Shown: positions 26,239 to 36,718 of the stretch, in pieces
Layout: every line of letters begins with the position of its first letter
Numbering within the stretch: the stretch's first letter is position 1
Source of the DNA: Candidatus Halobonum tyrrellensis G22
GTDB taxonomy: Archaea > Halobacteriota > Halobacteria > Halobacteriales > Haloferacaceae
Length of the DNA stretch: 46,632 bases
Reading direction: 5' to 3'
Assembly (NCBI RefSeq): GCF_000495475.1
Contig: NZ_ASGZ01000044.1
Span: 1 to 46,632 of the forward strand
Program-made: the position numbers and the translations under genes
Notes under the pieces: model-generated
Seen by the model: only the letters and a program-made list of their open reading frames with translations
Told to the model about the DNA's origin: nothing
Databases searched by the model: none

Positions 26239-28497
26239 ATGGGCCTGGACGACGACGCGCGGGAGTACCACCGATCCGACCCGCCCGGGAAGATCGAGAT
26301 ATCGACGACGAAGCCGACGAACACCCAACGCGACCTGTCGTTGGCGTACTCGCCGGGCGTGGCGGCGCCGTGTCTCGACATCGACGCCGACTCCGAACGG
26401 GCGTACGAGTACACGGCGAAGGGGAACCTCGTCGCGGTCGTCTCGAACGGGTCGGCCGTACTCGGTCTCGGCGACATCGGCGGGCAGGCGTCGAAGCCGG
26501 TGATGGAGGGGAAGGGCGTCCTCTTCAAGCGGTTCGCCGACATCGACGTGTTCGACATCGAACTCGACCAGACCGACCCGGACGACATCATCCGGAGCGT
26601 CTCGGCGATGGAGCCGACGTTCGGCGGCGTCAACCTCGAGGACATCGCCGCGCCCGAGTGTTTCGAGATCGAGTCCAAACTCCGCGAGGAGATGGACGTC
26701 CCCGTCTTCCACGACGACCAACACGGCACGGCGATCATCTCCGGTGCGGCGCTGATCAACGCCGCCGACATCGTCGACAAGGACCTCTCGGAACTGGACA
26801 TCGTCTTCTCCGGTGCGGGTGCGTCCGCCATCGCGACGGCGCGCTTCTACGTCTCGCTGGGCGCGGAGGCGAGCAACATCGTGATGTGCGACTCCTCGGG
26901 CGTCATCACCGCCGAACGCGCCGCGAACGACGACGTCAACGAGTTCAAGAAGGAGTTCGCCAGCGAGACCGCCGAGGGCGGGCTGGCGGACGCGATGGAG
27001 GGTGCGGACGTGTTCGTCGGCCTGTCGGTCGGCGGCATCGTCGACCAGGAGATGGTGCGGTCGATGGCCGACGACCCCGTCATCTTCGCGATGGCGAACC
27101 CCGACCCCGAGATCGGCTACGAGGAGGCCAAAAACGCCCGCGACGACACGGTGATCATGGCCACGGGCCGGTCGGACTACCCCAACCAGGTGAACAACGT
27201 CCTCGGCTTCCCGTTCATCTTCCGGGGCGCACTCGACGTGCGCGCGACCGACATCAACGAGGAGATGAAACGCGCCGCCGCCGAAGCGCTTGCCGACCTC
27301 GCCCGACAGGACGTCCCCGACGCCGTCGTCAAAGCGTACGGCGACCAACCGCTCCAGTACGGTCCCGAGTACGTCATCCCGAAACCGCTCGACCCTCGCG
27401 TCCTCTTCGAGTTGGCGCCCGCAGTCGCCGAGGCGGCGAGCGAGTCGGGCGTCGCCCGGACCGAACTCGACCCCGACGAGTACACCGAGCGGCTGGAGGC
27501 GCGGCTGGGCAAGGGCCGCGAGATGATGCGGGTCGTGCTCAACAAGGCTCGCTCGGAGCCCAAGCGGGTCGTGCTCGCGGAGGGCGCCGACGAGAAGATG
27601 ATCCGCGCGGCCTACCAGATGCGCGAGCAGGGCATCGCCGACCCCGTCCTCCTGGGTGACCGCGGGGAGATCGAGTCGACCGCGCGGCGACTCGGGCTCG
27701 GGTTCGACCCCGAGGTGGTCGACCCCGGCGAGGACGCCGCGGCCGACCGGTACGCCGACCGCCTCCACGACCTGCGCAAGCGCAAGGGGATCACCCGCTC
27801 GGAGGCGGCCGACCTGGTCCAGCGGGACTCCAACTACTTCGGGAGCGTGATGGTCGAGGAGGGCGACGCGGACGCGCTGTTGACGGGGCTGACCCACGAC
27901 TACCCGAAGGCGCTCCGGCCGCCGCTGCAGGTGATCGGCACCGCGGAGGACGCCGACTACGTCGCGGGCGTGTACATGCTCACGTTCAAGAACCGCGTCG
28001 TGTTCTGCGCCGACACCACGGTCAACCAGGCGCCCGACGAGGAGGTGCTCGCGGAGATAACCAAACACACCGCCGACCTCGCGCGGCGGTTCAACGTCGA
28101 ACCGCGCGCCGCGATGCTGTCGTACTCCAACTTCGGCTCCGTCGAGAACGAGGGGACGATGAAGCCGCGGAAGGCGGTCGAACGCCTCCACGACGACCCC
28201 GAAGTGGACTTCCCGGTCGACGGGGAGATGCAGGCGGACACCGCCGTCGTCGAGGAGATACTCGAAGACACCTACCCGTTCGCGGAACTCGACGGGCCGG
28301 CGAACGTGCTGGTGTTCCCGAACCTGGAGGCGGGGAACATCGGCTACAAACTCCTCCAGCGGCTCGGCGGCGCGGGCGCCATCGGCCCGATGCTCGTCGG
28401 GATGGACAAACCGGTCCACGTGATCCAGCGGGGCGACGAGGTGAAGGACATCGTCAACCTCGCCGGGGTCGCGGTCGTCGACGCCCAAGACGAGTAG
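26239..28497 (+). CDS. maeB: NADP-dependent malic enzyme (MaeB type)
   Basis: A 752-residue two-domain protein. Residues 1-420 are malic enzyme: [12 protein letters not shown] holds the catalytic Tyr, and [20 protein letters not shown] with [12 protein letters not shown] the catalytic Lys region; E-D and H-D-D-Q-H-G-T-A motifs bind metal and substrate; [10 protein letters not shown] is the nucleotide-binding turn. Residues about 430-752 are a phosphotransacetylase-like domain ([18 protein letters not shown] to the C-terminal [17 protein letters not shown]), usually a regulatory acetyl-CoA-sensing module in MaeB. It decarboxylates malate to pyruvate with NADP reduction, linking the TCA cycle to gluconeogenic or lipid precursors. 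A GCTTTTTCC box precedes the ATG by about 27 bp. Confidence 0.95.
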
Positions 28498-28675: not shown

Positions 28676-29089
28676 ATGAACCTCAAACAACTCGTCACGG
28701 ACGACCGCGCCGTGAGCCCGGTCATCGGGGTCATCCTGATGGTCGCCATCACCGTGATCCTCGCGGCCGTCATCGGGACGTTCGTGCTCGGACTCGGTAG
28801 CGGGCTGAACCAAGCGCCGCAGGTGCAGATGGACTTCGAATACGATAGCCCGGATGGAACGGTTGCTGTTACTCATCAGGGTGGCGCTGAACTGTCGAAC
28901 AGTACGCTTTCAATATCTGAATCGGACACCAACACCTCACTGAGTTTGGGTACTCAAGATACCTACACCGCTGGTGACACCATCGCGTCCGGTGACTACG
29001 ACGCGGGCGAGACGATCAGCATCGTCTGGTCGAGCCCCGACGGCAGCAGCTCCCAGATCATCGGTGAATCCACCGCGCCGAGCAACTAA
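28676..29089 (+). CDS. Type IV pilin (PilA-like) 1
   Basis: A 137-residue prepilin. The class III signal is textbook for haloarchaea: K-Q-L-V-T-D-D-R-A followed by [20 protein letters not shown], cut by PibD just ahead of VSPVIG, after which the hydrophobic helix drives assembly. The head domain is small, acidic and Ser/Thr-rich and ends [15 protein letters not shown]. The next gene starts 2 bp after its stop and encodes a near twin. Codons for the head (about 28850-28990) are AT-richer than those for the helix. Pilins mediate adhesion and biofilm formation. Confidence 0.9.
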
Positions 29090-29091
29090 CC

Positions 29092-29526
29092 ATGAATATC
29101 AAACAACTCTTCGCTGACGACCGCGCGGTCAGCCCGGTCATCGGGGTCATCCTGATGGTCGCTATCACCGTGATCCTCGCGGCTGTCATCGGGACGTTCG
29201 TGCTCGGACTCGGTAGCGGACTCAACCAAGCGCCGCAGGTCCAGATGGACTTTCAGTTCACCGAGAACGCGAGCGAGGAGGGTTACAATGTTCAGGTCGT
29301 CCACCAAGGTGGACAGGAACTGACTGCCAATTCGATTTCAGCTGCGGCCTCGGAGGGGTCGGACATCTCGATCACTGGGACGAACAGCCCATACACAGCC
29401 GGTAGTGTCATTGTTGACAACAGCAACAATAGCGTGGTTCCCAGCGAAACCGTTCAGATTGTCTGGGCCTCACCCGACGGCAGCAGCTCCCAGATCATCG
29501 GCGAGTCCACCGCGCCGAGTAACTAA
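29092..29526 (+). CDS. Type IV pilin (PilA-like) 2
   Basis: A 144-residue prepilin, tandem to the first. Residues 9-52 are nearly identical to pilin 1 ([11 protein letters not shown] helix through [10 protein letters not shown]), and the last 15 residues are identical. The middle (about 53-125) has diverged (FTENASEEGYNVQVVHQGG and onwards), with VVHQGGQEL aligning to VTHQGGAEL. Tandem duplication followed by head-domain divergence is the likely history. Both genes should be on one transcript and may form heteropolymeric pili. Confidence 0.9.
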   Translation: MNIKQLFADDRAVSPVIGVILMVAITVILAAVIGTFVLGLGSGLNQAPQVQMDFQFTENASEEGYNVQVVHQGGQELTANSISAAASEGSDISITGTNSPYTAGSVIVDNSNNSVVPSETVQIVWASPDGSSSQIIGESTAPSN

Positions 29527-29684
29527 TCGCACCCGCGTTCTCACACTTTTCTCGACCGCTACACCGCGTAGCCGCGCGGCCGACCGGACGCCGGAGAACG
29601 GACGGCTCGACCCGCCGAGTCCGCGCGTAGACGCCGAGGCTCGTTATCACAGCATATAAGCCACTCAGTCACTTCGTGAGGGGT
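29527..29684 (+). promoter_or_regulatory. Promoter region of the ABC importer
   Basis: No gene is seen here. CATATAAG at 29653-29660 is a TATA-like box about 25-32 bp before the binding-protein ATG, indicating a near-leaderless transcript. CACACTTTTCTCG at 29542-29554 may end the pilin transcript. Confidence 0.45.
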
Positions 29685-31346
29685 ATGTCGAACGAGGACA
29701 CCACCAGACGGCGGTTTCTGAGCGCGGCCGGGTCGGCCGCGGCGGCGGCGGCGCTGGCCGGCTGTTCGGGCAACGGCGGCGACGACGCAACCACCGAGGG
29801 CGACGCCGACACCACCGCGTCGACGGGGACGGACACCGCCACCGGAACCGAGGCGGCGGAGACGACCGAACTGCCCGAACCCGAGACGCGGGAGGGGTAC
29901 CTCCAGCGGGCGAACCTCGTGGCCCACGAGCAGGCGCCGTGGATCTTCCTCAACCGCCAGTACTCGGTGTACGGCAAGTCGAACGCCATCGAGTGGGAGG
30001 CGCGACGCGACGAGCGGATCGACGCGTACGACATCGCGCCCGCGGGCGACGGCGGCGAGGACGTGCTGATCACGCAGGGGCAACTCGACTCGGGGCTCGA
30101 CCCCCACGACCACCGCGAGACGACCACCGACAACGTCGTCCTCCAGGCGTACGAGGGCGTCCTCGCGCGCGACGCCGAGGGGTCGGTCATCCCGATGCTG
30201 GCGACCGAGTACGAACGCGTCGAGGACGGCGTGGTCGAGTTCGTCGTCCGCGACGACGTGACGTTCCACAACGGCGACCCGCTCACCCCCGAGGACGTCG
30301 CCTTCTCGATCAACCGGATCGTCCAGAGCGACGTGGGCGGACTCGAGAGCCCTCAGAGCGACCAGTTGTCCGGCGTCACCGGCGCGGAAGTCGCCGACTC
30401 GGAGGCGCGGACGGTCCGGGTCGAATCGGAGAACCTCAACCCGATCGTCTTCGCGCTGTTCGCGAGCTACTGCGACATCATGCAGCAGTCGTGGGTCGAG
30501 GAGCACGAGAACGCCTACATCAACCAGCACATGAACGGGACCGGCCCGTTCGTCCTCTCGAACTACGAGCAGGGCGTCTCCGTCGAGTTCGAGCGGAACG
30601 AGGAGTACTGGCAGGAGCCCGCGGCCATCTCGACGCTCACCTTCGAGGGCGCCTCCGAGGCGAGCACGCGCGTCAACACGCTGCTCAGCGGCGAGTCGGA
30701 CATCATCGTCAACGTCCCCCCGCAGGACGTGAGCCGCGTCGACAGCAACGAGTCGACGTCGGTCGCGGCGGTGCCGTCGACGCGGATCATCTACAACGGG
30801 CTCCGGACCGACGTCGAGCCGTTCGACTCGGTCGAGTTCCGCCGCGCGATGAACTACGCGGTCAACCTCGATTCGATCGTCGAGAACGTCCTCCAGACGT
30901 TCGGCGCCCCGACGGGCCAGCCGACGCTCGAAGGGTTCACCGGCTACAACTCCGACGTCGACCCGTACCCCCACGACCCCGACCGCGCCGAGCAGTTGGT
31001 CGAGGAGTCGGGCTACGGCGGCGCGGAGCTGACGCTGCACACGCCGGTCGGCCGCTACCTCAAGGACGTCGAGATCGCCCGCGCGGTCGCGAGCCAGATC
31101 GACGAACTCCCCAACGTCTCCGCGAGCGTCGAACAGCGGGAGTTCGCGTCGCTCACCGACGAACTGCTGACGGGCAGCATCGAGGACAAGCCCCACTGGT
31201 TCCTCATCGGCTGGGGGAACGCGACGTTCGACGCGAGCCAGACGCTGATCCCGCTGATGACGAGCGAGGGCGTGTTGACCACGTTCCAAAGCGAGCGGTT
31301 CGACAGCCTCGTCGAGAACGCCCAGGGCCTCCCGGGCGACAACTGA
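29685..31346 (+). CDS. ABC importer substrate-binding lipoprotein (SBP_bac_5), apparently circularly permuted
   Basis: A 553-residue Tat lipoprotein: R8-R-R-F-L, hydrophobic core, lipobox L-A-G-C27, then an Asp/Thr linker. The body (about 125-553) is peptide/nickel-type SBP: LDPHDHRETT, VTFHNGDPLTPEDVAFSINR and GTGPFVLSNYEQG in the usual order. Residues 67-118 (REGYLQRANLVAHEQAPWIF, VYGKSNAIEWEARRDERID) look like the segment that normally ends this family, yet lie before the body. The protein stops at SLVENAQGLPGDN, just where that tail would begin. Both junctions share an L-P dipeptide. It delivers a peptide-like or other solute to the permeases encoded downstream; the solute is unknown. Confidence 0.9.
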   Translation: MSNEDTTRRRFLSAAGSAAAAAALAGCSGNGGDDATTEGDADTTASTGTDTATGTEAAETTELPEPETREGYLQRANLVAHEQAPWIFLNRQYSVYGKSNAIEWEARRDERIDAYDIAPAGDGGEDVLITQGQLDSGLDPHDHRETTTDNVVLQAYEGVLARDAEGSVIPMLATEYERVEDGVVEFVVRDDVTFHNGDPLTPEDVAFSINRIVQSDVGGLESPQSDQLSGVTGAEVADSEARTVRVESENLNPIVFALFASYCDIMQQSWVEEHENAYINQHMNGTGPFVLSNYEQGVSVEFERNEEYWQEPAAISTLTFEGASEASTRVNTLLSGESDIIVNVPPQDVSRVDSNESTSVAAVPSTRIIYNGLRTDVEPFDSVEFRRAMNYAVNLDSIVENVLQTFGAPTGQPTLEGFTGYNSDVDPYPHDPDRAEQLVEESGYGGAELTLHTPVGRYLKDVEIARAVASQIDELPNVSASVEQREFASLTDELLTGSIEDKPHWFLIGWGNATFDASQTLIPLMTSEGVLTTFQSERFDSLVENAQGLPGDN

Positions 31347-31457: not shown

Positions 31458-32453
31458 ATGGCTTACGGACGGTTCTTACTCAAACGCGGTCTGCAGGGCG
31501 TGCTGGTCGTCTGGGGGGTGGTGACCGTCGTGTTCGGACTGCGGTTCATCACGCCCGGCAACCCCGTCAACGCCGTCGCGCCGCTGGACGCCAGCCCGGA
31601 GCTGCGACAGCGGATCGCCGAGGAGCTCGGTCTCAACCGCCCGGTGTACGTCCAGTACGCCGACTACATCTGGGAACTGCTCCACGGCGACATGGGCTAC
31701 TCGTACATCTCGAGTATCGACGCGAGCACGATCGTGTTGAGCAAACTCCCCGCGACGCTCGAACTCGCGGTGGCGTCGACAGTCGTCGCCATCGTGTTGT
31801 CGATCCCGCTGGGGGTCGTGAGCGCGACCCGGCGGCACGAGCCCGCCGACTACGCCGCGACGTCGTTCTCGCTGGTCGGCATCTCGACGCCGAACTTCTG
31901 GCTGGGGATCATGCTCGTGTTGCTGCTGTCGGTCGAACTCAACCTCTTCCCGACCAGCGGGCGGGCGTTCGGCTTCTACCGGTCGTTCGAACTGCTGTTC
32001 GCCGAGGGGGTGGGCGCGTTCTGGGCCGCCATCACGGGCTGGCTGTGGCACATCGCGCTCCCGGCGGTCACGCTGGGGACGTACTTCACGGCGCTCGTCA
32101 CGCGGCTCACCCGCTCGGGGATGCTCGACGAACTCGGCAAGCAGTACGTCCGCGCGACCCGCGCGAAGGGACTGCCCGAGACGTTGGTGCGCTACCGACA
32201 CGCGCTCAAGAACACGCTGATCCCGGTGGTGACGGTGCTCGGTCTCCAGATGGGGACGCTGATCGGCGGCGCGGTCATCACCGAGGCGGTGTTCTCGTGG
32301 CCCGGGCTCGGCACCACGCTGATCAACGCGATCAACGCCCGCGATTGGCCGATCATCCAGGGGACGCTGATCGTCATCGGCGTCGGGTTCGTGCTGGTGA
32401 ACGTGCTGGTCGACGCGCTGTACGCGTATCTCGACCCGCAGGTGGTGGAGTAG
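31458..32453 (+). CDS. dppB: ABC importer permease 1 (DppB type)
   Basis: A 331-residue inner-membrane permease with about six helices. The N-terminal motif RFLLKRGLQGVLVVWGVVTVVF is the standard DppB/OppB opening; the cytoplasmic EAA loop is in ATRAKGLPETLVRYRHALKN, which docks the ATPases. It forms a heterodimeric channel with the next gene product, whose ATG follows its TAG directly. The 111 bp leader before it holds a CA-rich run (CACTCACACTCACA) and no other gene. Substrate class (dipeptide, oligopeptide, nickel) cannot be told. Confidence 0.92.
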   Translation: MAYGRFLLKRGLQGVLVVWGVVTVVFGLRFITPGNPVNAVAPLDASPELRQRIAEELGLNRPVYVQYADYIWELLHGDMGYSYISSIDASTIVLSKLPATLELAVASTVVAIVLSIPLGVVSATRRHEPADYAATSFSLVGISTPNFWLGIMLVLLLSVELNLFPTSGRAFGFYRSFELLFAEGVGAFWAAITGWLWHIALPAVTLGTYFTALVTRLTRSGMLDELGKQYVRATRAKGLPETLVRYRHALKNTLIPVVTVLGLQMGTLIGGAVITEAVFSWPGLGTTLINAINARDWPIIQGTLIVIGVGFVLVNVLVDALYAYLDPQVVE

Positions 32454-33563
32454 ATGGCGGACTCGACCGGACCCCTCGACCGGCTGTTCGGCGCCGTAGA
32501 CCGCGTCCGCGGCGCGCTGACGGTTTCGCCGCGGACGGTGCGGAACCTGAAGTCGGAGTACCGCACGAGCGCGCTCTCGAAGGTCGGGGTCGCGCTCATC
32601 CTCGTCGTCGTGTTCATGGCGGTGTTCGCGCCGTTCATCGCGCCCCAGAACCCGACGACCCAGAACCTCGACAACGGGCGGCTCCCCCCGCTGGGGTTCA
32701 CGCAGACGGAACAACAGACGCAGACGCAGATGGTCAACGGAAGCATCCAGACGGTGAACACGACGGAGACGGTCAACGCGACGCTCGCCCACCCGCTCGG
32801 GACGAACTCGCTCGGCCAGGACATGCTCGCGCGGGTGATCTACGGCGCCCGCACGTCGCTGCTGGTCGGACTGCTCGGAACCTCGCTCGCGGCGCTGTTG
32901 GGCGTGAGCGTCGGACTCACCGCGGGCTACTACCGCGGCCGGGTCGACGACACGCTGATGCGCTTTGCGGACGTGTCGCTCGCGTTCCCCTCGCTGGTGC
33001 TCGCGATCGCGCTGATCGGCGTGTGGGGGCGCGCGAGCGTGAGCGTCCCCGACCCGTTCGTGGTCGCGGGGGTGGTCGACCCGGTTCGGAGCGCGCTCGG
33101 CCTGCCGACGCCGATGCCCGACACGTTCGTCCTCCCGGGGACGGTGATCGTCGTCGTCGGGCTGGTCAACTGGGTGTGGTTCGCGCGGGTCGCCCGCGGC
33201 GAGGCGCTCTCCATCCGCGAAGAGGAGTTCGTGAAGGCCGCGCGCGCTCTCGGCGCGGACGACGCCCGGGTCGTCCTCCGGCACGTCCTCCCGAACGCGA
33301 CGACGCCGATCCTCGTGCTCGCGACGATCCAGGTGGCGTCGATCATCCTGCTCGAATCCTCGCTGTCGTTCCTCGGCTTCTCGGGGACGACCCTCTCGTG
33401 GGGCTTCGACATCGCGCAAGGGCGGGCGTACCTCGCGTCGGCGTGGTGGATCGCCACCGTCCCCGGGCTCGCCATCGTGTTGACCGTCGTCGGCATCAAC
33501 CTGGTCGGCGACTGGCTCCGCGACGCGCTCGACCCGGGCATCGAGGGCGAGGGGGGGATGTGA
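32454..33563 (+). CDS. dppC: ABC importer permease 2 (DppC type)
   Basis: A 369-residue permease. It has the DppC/OppC N-terminal helix (KVGVALILVVVFMAVFAPFI), then an external loop with a Gln/Thr-rich stretch (about 80-110), HPLGTNSLGQDMLARVIYGA, and the EAA loop EEEFVKAARALGADDARVVL. About six helices. The loop preceding HPLGTN is longer than in bacterial DppC. It starts immediately after the dppB stop, and dppD starts 1 bp after its TGA, so the four genes form one transcript. Confidence 0.92.
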   Translation: MADSTGPLDRLFGAVDRVRGALTVSPRTVRNLKSEYRTSALSKVGVALILVVVFMAVFAPFIAPQNPTTQNLDNGRLPPLGFTQTEQQTQTQMVNGSIQTVNTTETVNATLAHPLGTNSLGQDMLARVIYGARTSLLVGLLGTSLAALLGVSVGLTAGYYRGRVDDTLMRFADVSLAFPSLVLAIALIGVWGRASVSVPDPFVVAGVVDPVRSALGLPTPMPDTFVLPGTVIVVVGLVNWVWFARVARGEALSIREEEFVKAARALGADDARVVLRHVLPNATTPILVLATIQVASIILLESSLSFLGFSGTTLSWGFDIAQGRAYLASAWWIATVPGLAIVLTVVGINLVGDWLRDALDPGIEGEGGM

Positions 33564-33564
33564 G

Positions 33565-34846
<1,282 letters not shown>

Positions 34847-34854
<8 letters not shown>

Positions 34855-36718
34855 GACCGACCCCGGCGCCGGGAGCGACCTCCGGGGGACGGACGCCCGG
34901 GACGGGGACGGCGCAGACGCGAGTGCCCCGCCCGCGGGCGACGACGACGCGCTCGTGGAGGTGCGCGGCCTGCGGAAGTACTACTACGAGGACGACACGC
35001 TGATCGACCGACTGTTGCGCCGCGAGCCGACCAGCATCCAGGCGGTCGACGGGGTCGATCTGGACATCGAGCGGGGGGAGACGCTCGGGCTGGTCGGCGA
35101 GTCGGGCTGTGGCAAGTCGACGACCGGCGAGACGCTGTTGCGCCTGCGCGACGCGACCGACGGCTCCGTGCGGTTCGACGGCGAGGACGTGCTCTCGATG
35201 GGGTCGTCGGAGCTCCGCCGGTTCCGCAAGCGCGCGCAGATCGTCTTCCAGGACCCCTTCTCCAGTCTCGACCCGCGGATGACCGTCGGCGACGTGATCG
35301 CCGAGGGGCTGAAGATCCACGACCTGCCCGCCGCCGACCCCGACGTGGCGGTCGAAGCCGACGTGACCGTCGACGGCGACGCCGACGTGGAGGTGACCGT
35401 CGACGACGACGTCGACACCGCAGTCGAAAGCGAGGGAGGCGTCGCGCGCGTCCCCGTCCGCGTGGACGCGACCGGCGCGGGTGCGACCGGGTCGGCCGAC
35501 GGCGGGACGCGCGCGGACGGCGGGCCGACCGTCTCGTTCGGCCGGTACGACGACGTGCTCGCGGCCGAGGTAACCCCTCGCGACGGCGGCTACGACGTGC
35601 ACGTCTCGGTCGGCGCCTCCAAGCGGACGCTCCGCCGCGAGCGGGCGCGCACGCTGCTCGAACGCGTCGGTCTCTCGGCCGGCCAGATCGACCGCTACCC
35701 CCACGAGTTCTCGGGGGGACAGCGACAGCGGGTCGGCATCGCCAGAGCGCTCGCGCTCGACCCCGAGTTCATCGTGCTCGACGAGCCGGTGAGCGCGCTC
35801 GACGTGTCGGTGCAAGCGCAGATCCTCAACCTGCTCGACGACCTGCAGTCGGAGTACGGCCTGACGTACCTGTTCATCGCGCACGACCTGAGCGTGGTCC
35901 GGCACATCTGCGACCGGGTGGCCGTGATGTACCTCGGCGAGGTGGTCGAGACGGGGACGACCGAGGAACTGTTCGAGTCGCCGAAACACCCCTACACCGA
36001 GGCGCTGTTGGAGTCGGTCCCGCGGGCGGACACCTCCGAGCAGGGCCGACGGGTCGAGACGCTGTCGGGCGACGTGCCGTCGCCGCGCGACCCGCCGTCC
36101 GGCTGTCGGTTCCGGACCCGCTGTCCGGAGGTCATCCCGCCCGCGGGCGTCGCCGTCGACCAGTCGACGTACCGGTCGGTGATGGACCTCCGCGACCGCC
36201 TCCGCCGCGGCGACTTCGGCACGGGCGTCGTCTGGGAGGCGGTCGGCGACCCCGACCGCGAGGACACCGAGGCGTTCAAACGCGAGGTGCGCGCGGAGTT
36301 CGGTCTCGACGGGCTGACGGGCGCGAACGGCGACACCGTCGAGGACGCGCTCGAAGTGCTCGCGAACGGCCGCGAACGCGAGGCGGCCGAGCGGCTGACC
36401 GAGCGGTTCGAGTCGGTCTGCGAGACCGAGGAGCCGGTGTTGCCCGACGAACCGCACCCGGCGGCGTGTCACCTCTACGACGACGAGCGAGCGGCCGCGG
36501 GCGTCGACGACGACGCCGACCCCGTGACCGACCCCGAGTTCGGCGGGGCCGGGATGGCGGCGGGGATGGAGACCCCGGACCCCGAGGCGGCGGGCGGGGA
36601 GCTACCCGACGGGGTGTCCGACCCGGAGCACGGGGTCTCGGACGGGGACTCTAGCGATGCGGACGACGCCGACGACCACGACGCGAGTGAGGACGACCGC
36701 GACGGGTCGGAACCGTAA
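34847..36718 (+). CDS. dppF: ABC importer ATP-binding protein 2 (DppF type) with large insertions
   Basis: A 623-residue ATPase from GTG 34847; bacterial DppF is about 330. Core motifs are intact: GESGCGKST (84-92), [38 protein letters not shown] and IAHDLSVV. Residues about 164-258 are an extra acidic block ([19 protein letters not shown] and so on) between Q-loop and signature. A second block of about 95 residues (430-522) splits the Cys-bearing C-terminal oligopeptide domain: C420 and C426 precede it, C525 and C541 follow. An acidic tail of 80 residues ends the protein. It is expected to pair with DppD; the inserts may contact the permeases or be haloarchaeal adaptations. Confidence 0.9.

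Follow-up and report, generated by a model that had tools for sequence, protein, structure and literature searches.

The closest described precedent for a rearranged substrate-binding protein (SBP) is TpMglB-2 (Tp0684) of Treponema pallidum, a naturally permuted, membrane-tethered SBP designated 'Type Ic / Cluster Bc' (PMC4990184). Its first three N-lobe strands have moved to the C-terminus, with 13% identity in the permuted part, and it has kept glucose binding and closure; a connection with tethering was proposed by its authors (PMC4990184). For family 5, no report of a permuted SBP was found in the open-licence literature. The earlier note knew of no described permuted member; TpMglB-2 is a described case, in another SBP class (PMC4990184).

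Our analysis concerns the SBP gene of a 46,632-nucleotide contig of Candidatus Halobonum tyrrellensis G22 (the window). Its product is very probably a naturally circularly permuted family-5 (cluster C) ABC-importer lipoprotein, an assessment that covers the whole account, including its inferred steps. In the present chain the last ~56 ancestral residues follow the lipid-anchored linker and precede the body, a short junction joins the old ends, and the new chain ends fall within a single surface loop that precedes the last helix. The features of the locus are as follows.

26239..28497, + strand: malic-enzyme gene that identifies the shared locus, lying upstream of the SBP whether permuted or canonical (comparative loci)
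29685..31346, + strand: permuted SBP gene, encoding a 553-aa substrate-binding lipoprotein of family 5 / cluster C (ORF; Pfam PF00496, E 5e-69; swapped profile order)
29685..29765, + strand: twin-arginine signal and lipobox, ...RRRFLSAAGSAAAAAALAGC, with predicted lipidated Cys27 (sequence; weak Pfam TAT_signal)
29766..29870, + strand: low-complexity linker from the lipid anchor to the moved tail (sequence; pLDDT <50 over mature residues 1-33)
29871..30038, + strand: moved tail, residues 63-118, consisting of a helix, a 14-residue strand and the W-E-x-R-x-D-E-R end (profile; blastp to canonical C-termini; predicted helix and strand)
30039..30062, + strand: new junction PAGDGGED, linking what were the C-terminus and the mature N-terminus (comparison with canonical relatives)
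30039..31343, + strand: body, residues 119-553, equivalent to canonical positions 4-428 (profile E 2e-210; Foldseek to family-5 SBPs)
31323..31346, + strand: new C-terminus, QGLPGDN and stop, at the loop where relatives run on into the tail (relatives; no tail remnant downstream)
31458..32453, + strand: ABC permease 1 of the operon (its orthologues come after the SBP at permuted and canonical loci alike)
32454..33563, + strand: ABC permease 2 of the operon (comparative loci)
33565..34854, + strand: ABC ATPase 1, Dpp/Opp type (comparative loci)
34847..36718, + strand: ABC ATPase 2 (ORF list; start inferred, the mechanical ORF running from 34613)

As is characteristic of family 5, the SBP is encoded together with two permeases and two ATPases. 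At 29650-29662, some 25-30 bases ahead of the SBP start codon, lies a TATA-like catataagc, a placement that would suit leaderless transcription in haloarchaea. Between the malic-enzyme gene and the SBP are tandem pilin-like genes (28676-29089 and 29092-29526), whose N-termini are nearly identical and whose C-termini have diverged.

The order malic enzyme, SBP, two permeases, ATPases is shared by five permuted and four canonical loci. The malic-enzyme gene, 80-87% identical, adjoins a permuted SBP in L063, L065, L067, L069 and L073 and a canonical one in L074, L076, L081 and L082, and permuted and canonical orthologues are ~60-67% identical. In genera g5 and g17, the shared locus holds a permuted or a canonical gene, depending on the species. 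Genome G006 has its permuted operon (L066) away from the malic-enzyme gene; near the latter lies a fast-evolving canonical SBP (L070, G006:C11:834821-836128), with no matching permease in the 17 kb read. As a rule, natural permutations are detected by comparing distantly related proteins. In this case, close permuted and canonical orthologues occupy the same locus and are even alternatives within one genus, so that the cost, benefit and origin of a permutation become directly testable.

The evidence for the swapped order comes mainly from a profile built from canonical haloarchaeal relatives. ORF residues 75-136 (protein residues ~57-118) match profile positions 423-484 (E 1e-22), and the body, which matches positions 4-428 (E 2e-210), comes after this tail match, whereas the canonical orthologue L074 gives a single collinear match over positions 3-486. 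The protein therefore has its tail first and its body second, the reverse of the canonical N-to-C order of elements in SBP family 5, and its homologous segments stand in rotated order relative to otherwise collinear relatives, as is the mark of a natural circular permutation. The tail motif LPEPETREGYLQRANLVAHEQAPWIFLNRQYSVYGKSNAIEWEARRDERIDAYDIA, which contains the APWIFLN strand, makes up residues 63-118 of the translation and is homologous to the C-terminus of canonical family-5 SBPs by profile and blastp, while the translated C-terminal end of the 553-aa chain reads ...ENAQGLPGDN*. No second tail copy was found at the C-terminus, nor within 300 bases past the end of 44 permuted genes. The earlier note had recognised the tail hallmark between lipobox linker and body, which the two profile matches bear out, and had read it as a circular permutation. 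This reading is supported because, at the syntenic locus, orthologues have this segment at their opposite end. The note had also argued, from an L-P shared by both ends, that a single tail had moved; the L-P is indeed present in the permuted SBP, but it is no evidence for such a move and does not discriminate between routes of rearrangement.

Pfam SBP_bac_5 (PF00496, 'Middle') is the sole significant Pfam match, at residues 168-528 (233.6 bits against a curated cut-off of 32.4). Searching with phmmer against AccA (8caw) returned the body as domain 1 and aligned residues 60-106 out of order to AccA 430-476, a match that is weak and not significant alone. A profile of permuted tails only, which is too short for significance, placed AccA C-termini at E 0.16-1.2 in the PDB, with two unrelated chains above them. 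Profile tools see the body alone, and permuted proteins are consequently annotated as ordinary SBPs.

AlphaFold prediction of the mature permuted SBP, which the earlier note had proposed as a check, confidently retained the helix and the 14-residue strand of the tail. The mean pLDDT was 90.6 and the pTM 0.85, with the moved tail mostly at 91-97 (helix 43-57 and strand 60-73 in mature-chain numbering), although canonical tails entered the AlphaFold alignment as rows of their own, and this may favour folding of the tail. The canonical orthologue was modelled at pLDDT 91.2, with its C-terminal helix at 459-476 and strand at 479-492. Of 482 aligned residues, 470 have the same secondary structure in the two models after rotation, as do 50/50 in the tail; without rotation the body by itself matches equally well, and the tail count is thus the informative figure. 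Top Foldseek matches of the permuted model were family-5 structures only (5u4o, E 4e-33), which assigns it to the family-5 fold. Sequential Foldseek alignment to 5u4o gave a TM of 0.92 for the canonical and 0.74 for the permuted model, the lower value being what an out-of-order segment would be expected to produce. Confidence and secondary structure together suggest that the tail packs in the usual family-5 slot.

At least 46 haloarchaeal species have inherited the tail-first arrangement. In the host family, 170 genomes were searched and 106 had a close relative, with the order read from fetched ORFs or, failing these, from the query range matched. Permuted order was found in 31 of these 106, across six genera, and the canonical order, with its C-terminal tail, in the other 75. 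Sampling across the class contributed a further 15 permuted genes, drawn from four other haloarchaeal families, and each one read had an N-terminal tail; the earlier note had foreseen that the same order in many homologues would make it lineage-wide, as these counts now confirm. Contig and plasmid scans showed canonical relatives in Halorubellus, Haloarchaeobius, Haloquadratum, Halomontanus rarus and Natronorubrum bangense, and the Halorubellus salinus ORF has canonical order. In all permuted genes the cut lies in the same loop. In most of them it falls between ...DxLxxEAQxLP and ..PETRExxLQRAN, with [L/R]PEPETRE as the N-side and AQxLP as the C-side flanking motif. In L039 (G045:C1:79508-81157), the permuted SBP has no stop codon before the permease downstream of it, and its frame continues into that gene as a 915-aa ORF, either a fusion or a lost stop.

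Such recurrence bears directly on how the arrangement is to be explained. An assembly or sequencing artefact, by which the tail was misplaced at one locus, might be suspected from the 72 contigs of the host assembly, but the same order and the same loop recur in 46 independent genomes, several of them in one or few contigs, and the permuted SBP frame is open with no tail remnant. We therefore reject this explanation, which has a negligible chance of being correct. A tail duplication would leave the N-terminal copy as a separate decoration on a fold that lacks a tail, its C-terminal copy having degenerated. Permutation usually begins with a duplication (PMC3320104). Against this, the permuted genes examined have neither a C-terminal tail nor a remnant of one in the 44 downstream stretches, on which ground a duplicated tail was rejected, and conservation of the N-terminal copy equals that of the body, with the same secondary structure predicted for it with high confidence. 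We consider this explanation very improbable. No double-tailed intermediate was present among the 46 permuted genes.

Whether the permutation arose once is a finer question. Body trees scatter the permuted genes over an unresolved fork, and on the first data set a single clade of permuted genes was not rejected (p 0.51). A tree of body and tail places the main permuted set on one branch (support 89); as one clade, this set gave p 0.79, 0.13 and 0.029 for body segments 1, 2 and 3, counted from the N- to the C-side. Several independent tail-first permutations at the same loop would account for the deep group in family f4, genus g52 (L124, L125, L126 and L127), which is tail-first and stands apart from the rest in trees, with well-supported branches around L124, L125 and L127 that force at least two changes. 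One clade of the main set and this deep group is likewise rejected by segments 2 and 3 (p 0.0006 and 0.003), and one clade is rejected by the permeases of permuted operons (p 0.006). However, one clade of all permuted forms is compatible with segment 1 (p 0.24), the junction motif LP[E/D]xxTRE is common even to the deep f4 group, the main set groups by body and tail, and recombination with canonical genes would scatter body trees too. Independent events are thus possible but, in our assessment, doubtful. The simplest account is one old permutation followed by recombination and exchange. Because the clade tests gave mixed answers, a single origin for most permuted forms is put forward as plausible.

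Taken as a circular permutation, the protein is most likely a working importer SBP with a shifted tether attachment point and predicted solute binding. With the tail in its usual place, it would bind its solute and deliver it to the adjoining permeases like an ordinary family-5 SBP. The main physical change would be in the tether's attachment site, which would shift from the first body strand to the helix preceding the last strand. The gene may have arisen by duplication and fusion, then trimming, the usual route to permutation (PMC3320104), plausibly with one origin for most carriers and later spread by descent and exchange.

Weak matches led to other archaeal family-5 SBPs that are permuted differently, with the C-terminal lobe first. 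Their cut lies near canonical position ~330-345, and the moved lobe measures ~115-190 residues. L135, from another archaeal class and with a PGF-CTERM anchor, matches profile positions 349-460 and then 14-325; the haloarchaeal L137 matches 360-472 and then 33-336. Curated models agree independently on the lobe-first order, with SapA positions 384-517 at residues 69-203 of L137 and PRK09755 positions 373-515 at residues 21-165 of L135. Lobe-first SBPs occur in 4/57 genomes of L135's order, and collinear relatives of L137 in 49/292 haloarchaeal genomes, their order being profile-checked only in those read. L136, L153 and L154 are further lobe-first family-5 SBPs. Three more are in the host genome:

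G000:C28:50171-51874: lobe-first SBP L149, followed by its own permeases and ATPases
G000:C37:2317-4020: lobe-first SBP L150/L157
G000:C2:263930-265642: lobe-first SBP L151

The short lobe match of L149 (E 0.009) is weak and less certain alone, and the protein is collinear with L137 over its length. Besides these three, the host genome has the canonical L155 and L156 and the tail-first SBP, and three orders of one fold, namely two permutations and the canonical one, thus coexist in a single genome. Both archaeal permutations occur in anchored proteins, which fits the tethering idea without proving it. It is a tentative and rather unlikely generalisation that archaeal cluster-C SBPs have been repeatedly permuted, at two or more cut sites and in several events, because shifting the chain ends moves the membrane tether relative to the binding lobes and is favoured in surface-tethering cells.

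Among known systems, TpMglB-2 resembles the permuted SBP in being a circularly permuted, tethered ABC SBP, but it belongs to the type I, cluster B, sugar class and a different segment has moved; the permuted SBP, with family-5 (cluster C) matches only, falls outside Type Ic / Cluster Bc. The lobe-first proteins (L135, L137, L149-L151) are permuted, tethered archaeal SBPs of the same family, but their cut differs, the whole C-terminal lobe coming first. Canonical family-5 SBPs (DppA, OppA, NikA and AccA, with 5u4o as the nearest solved structure by Foldseek) have the same fold and Pfam family, and those of haloarchaea also share its lipoprotein type, operon and locus. In contrast to them, the permuted SBP has its C-terminal ~56 residues ahead of the body.
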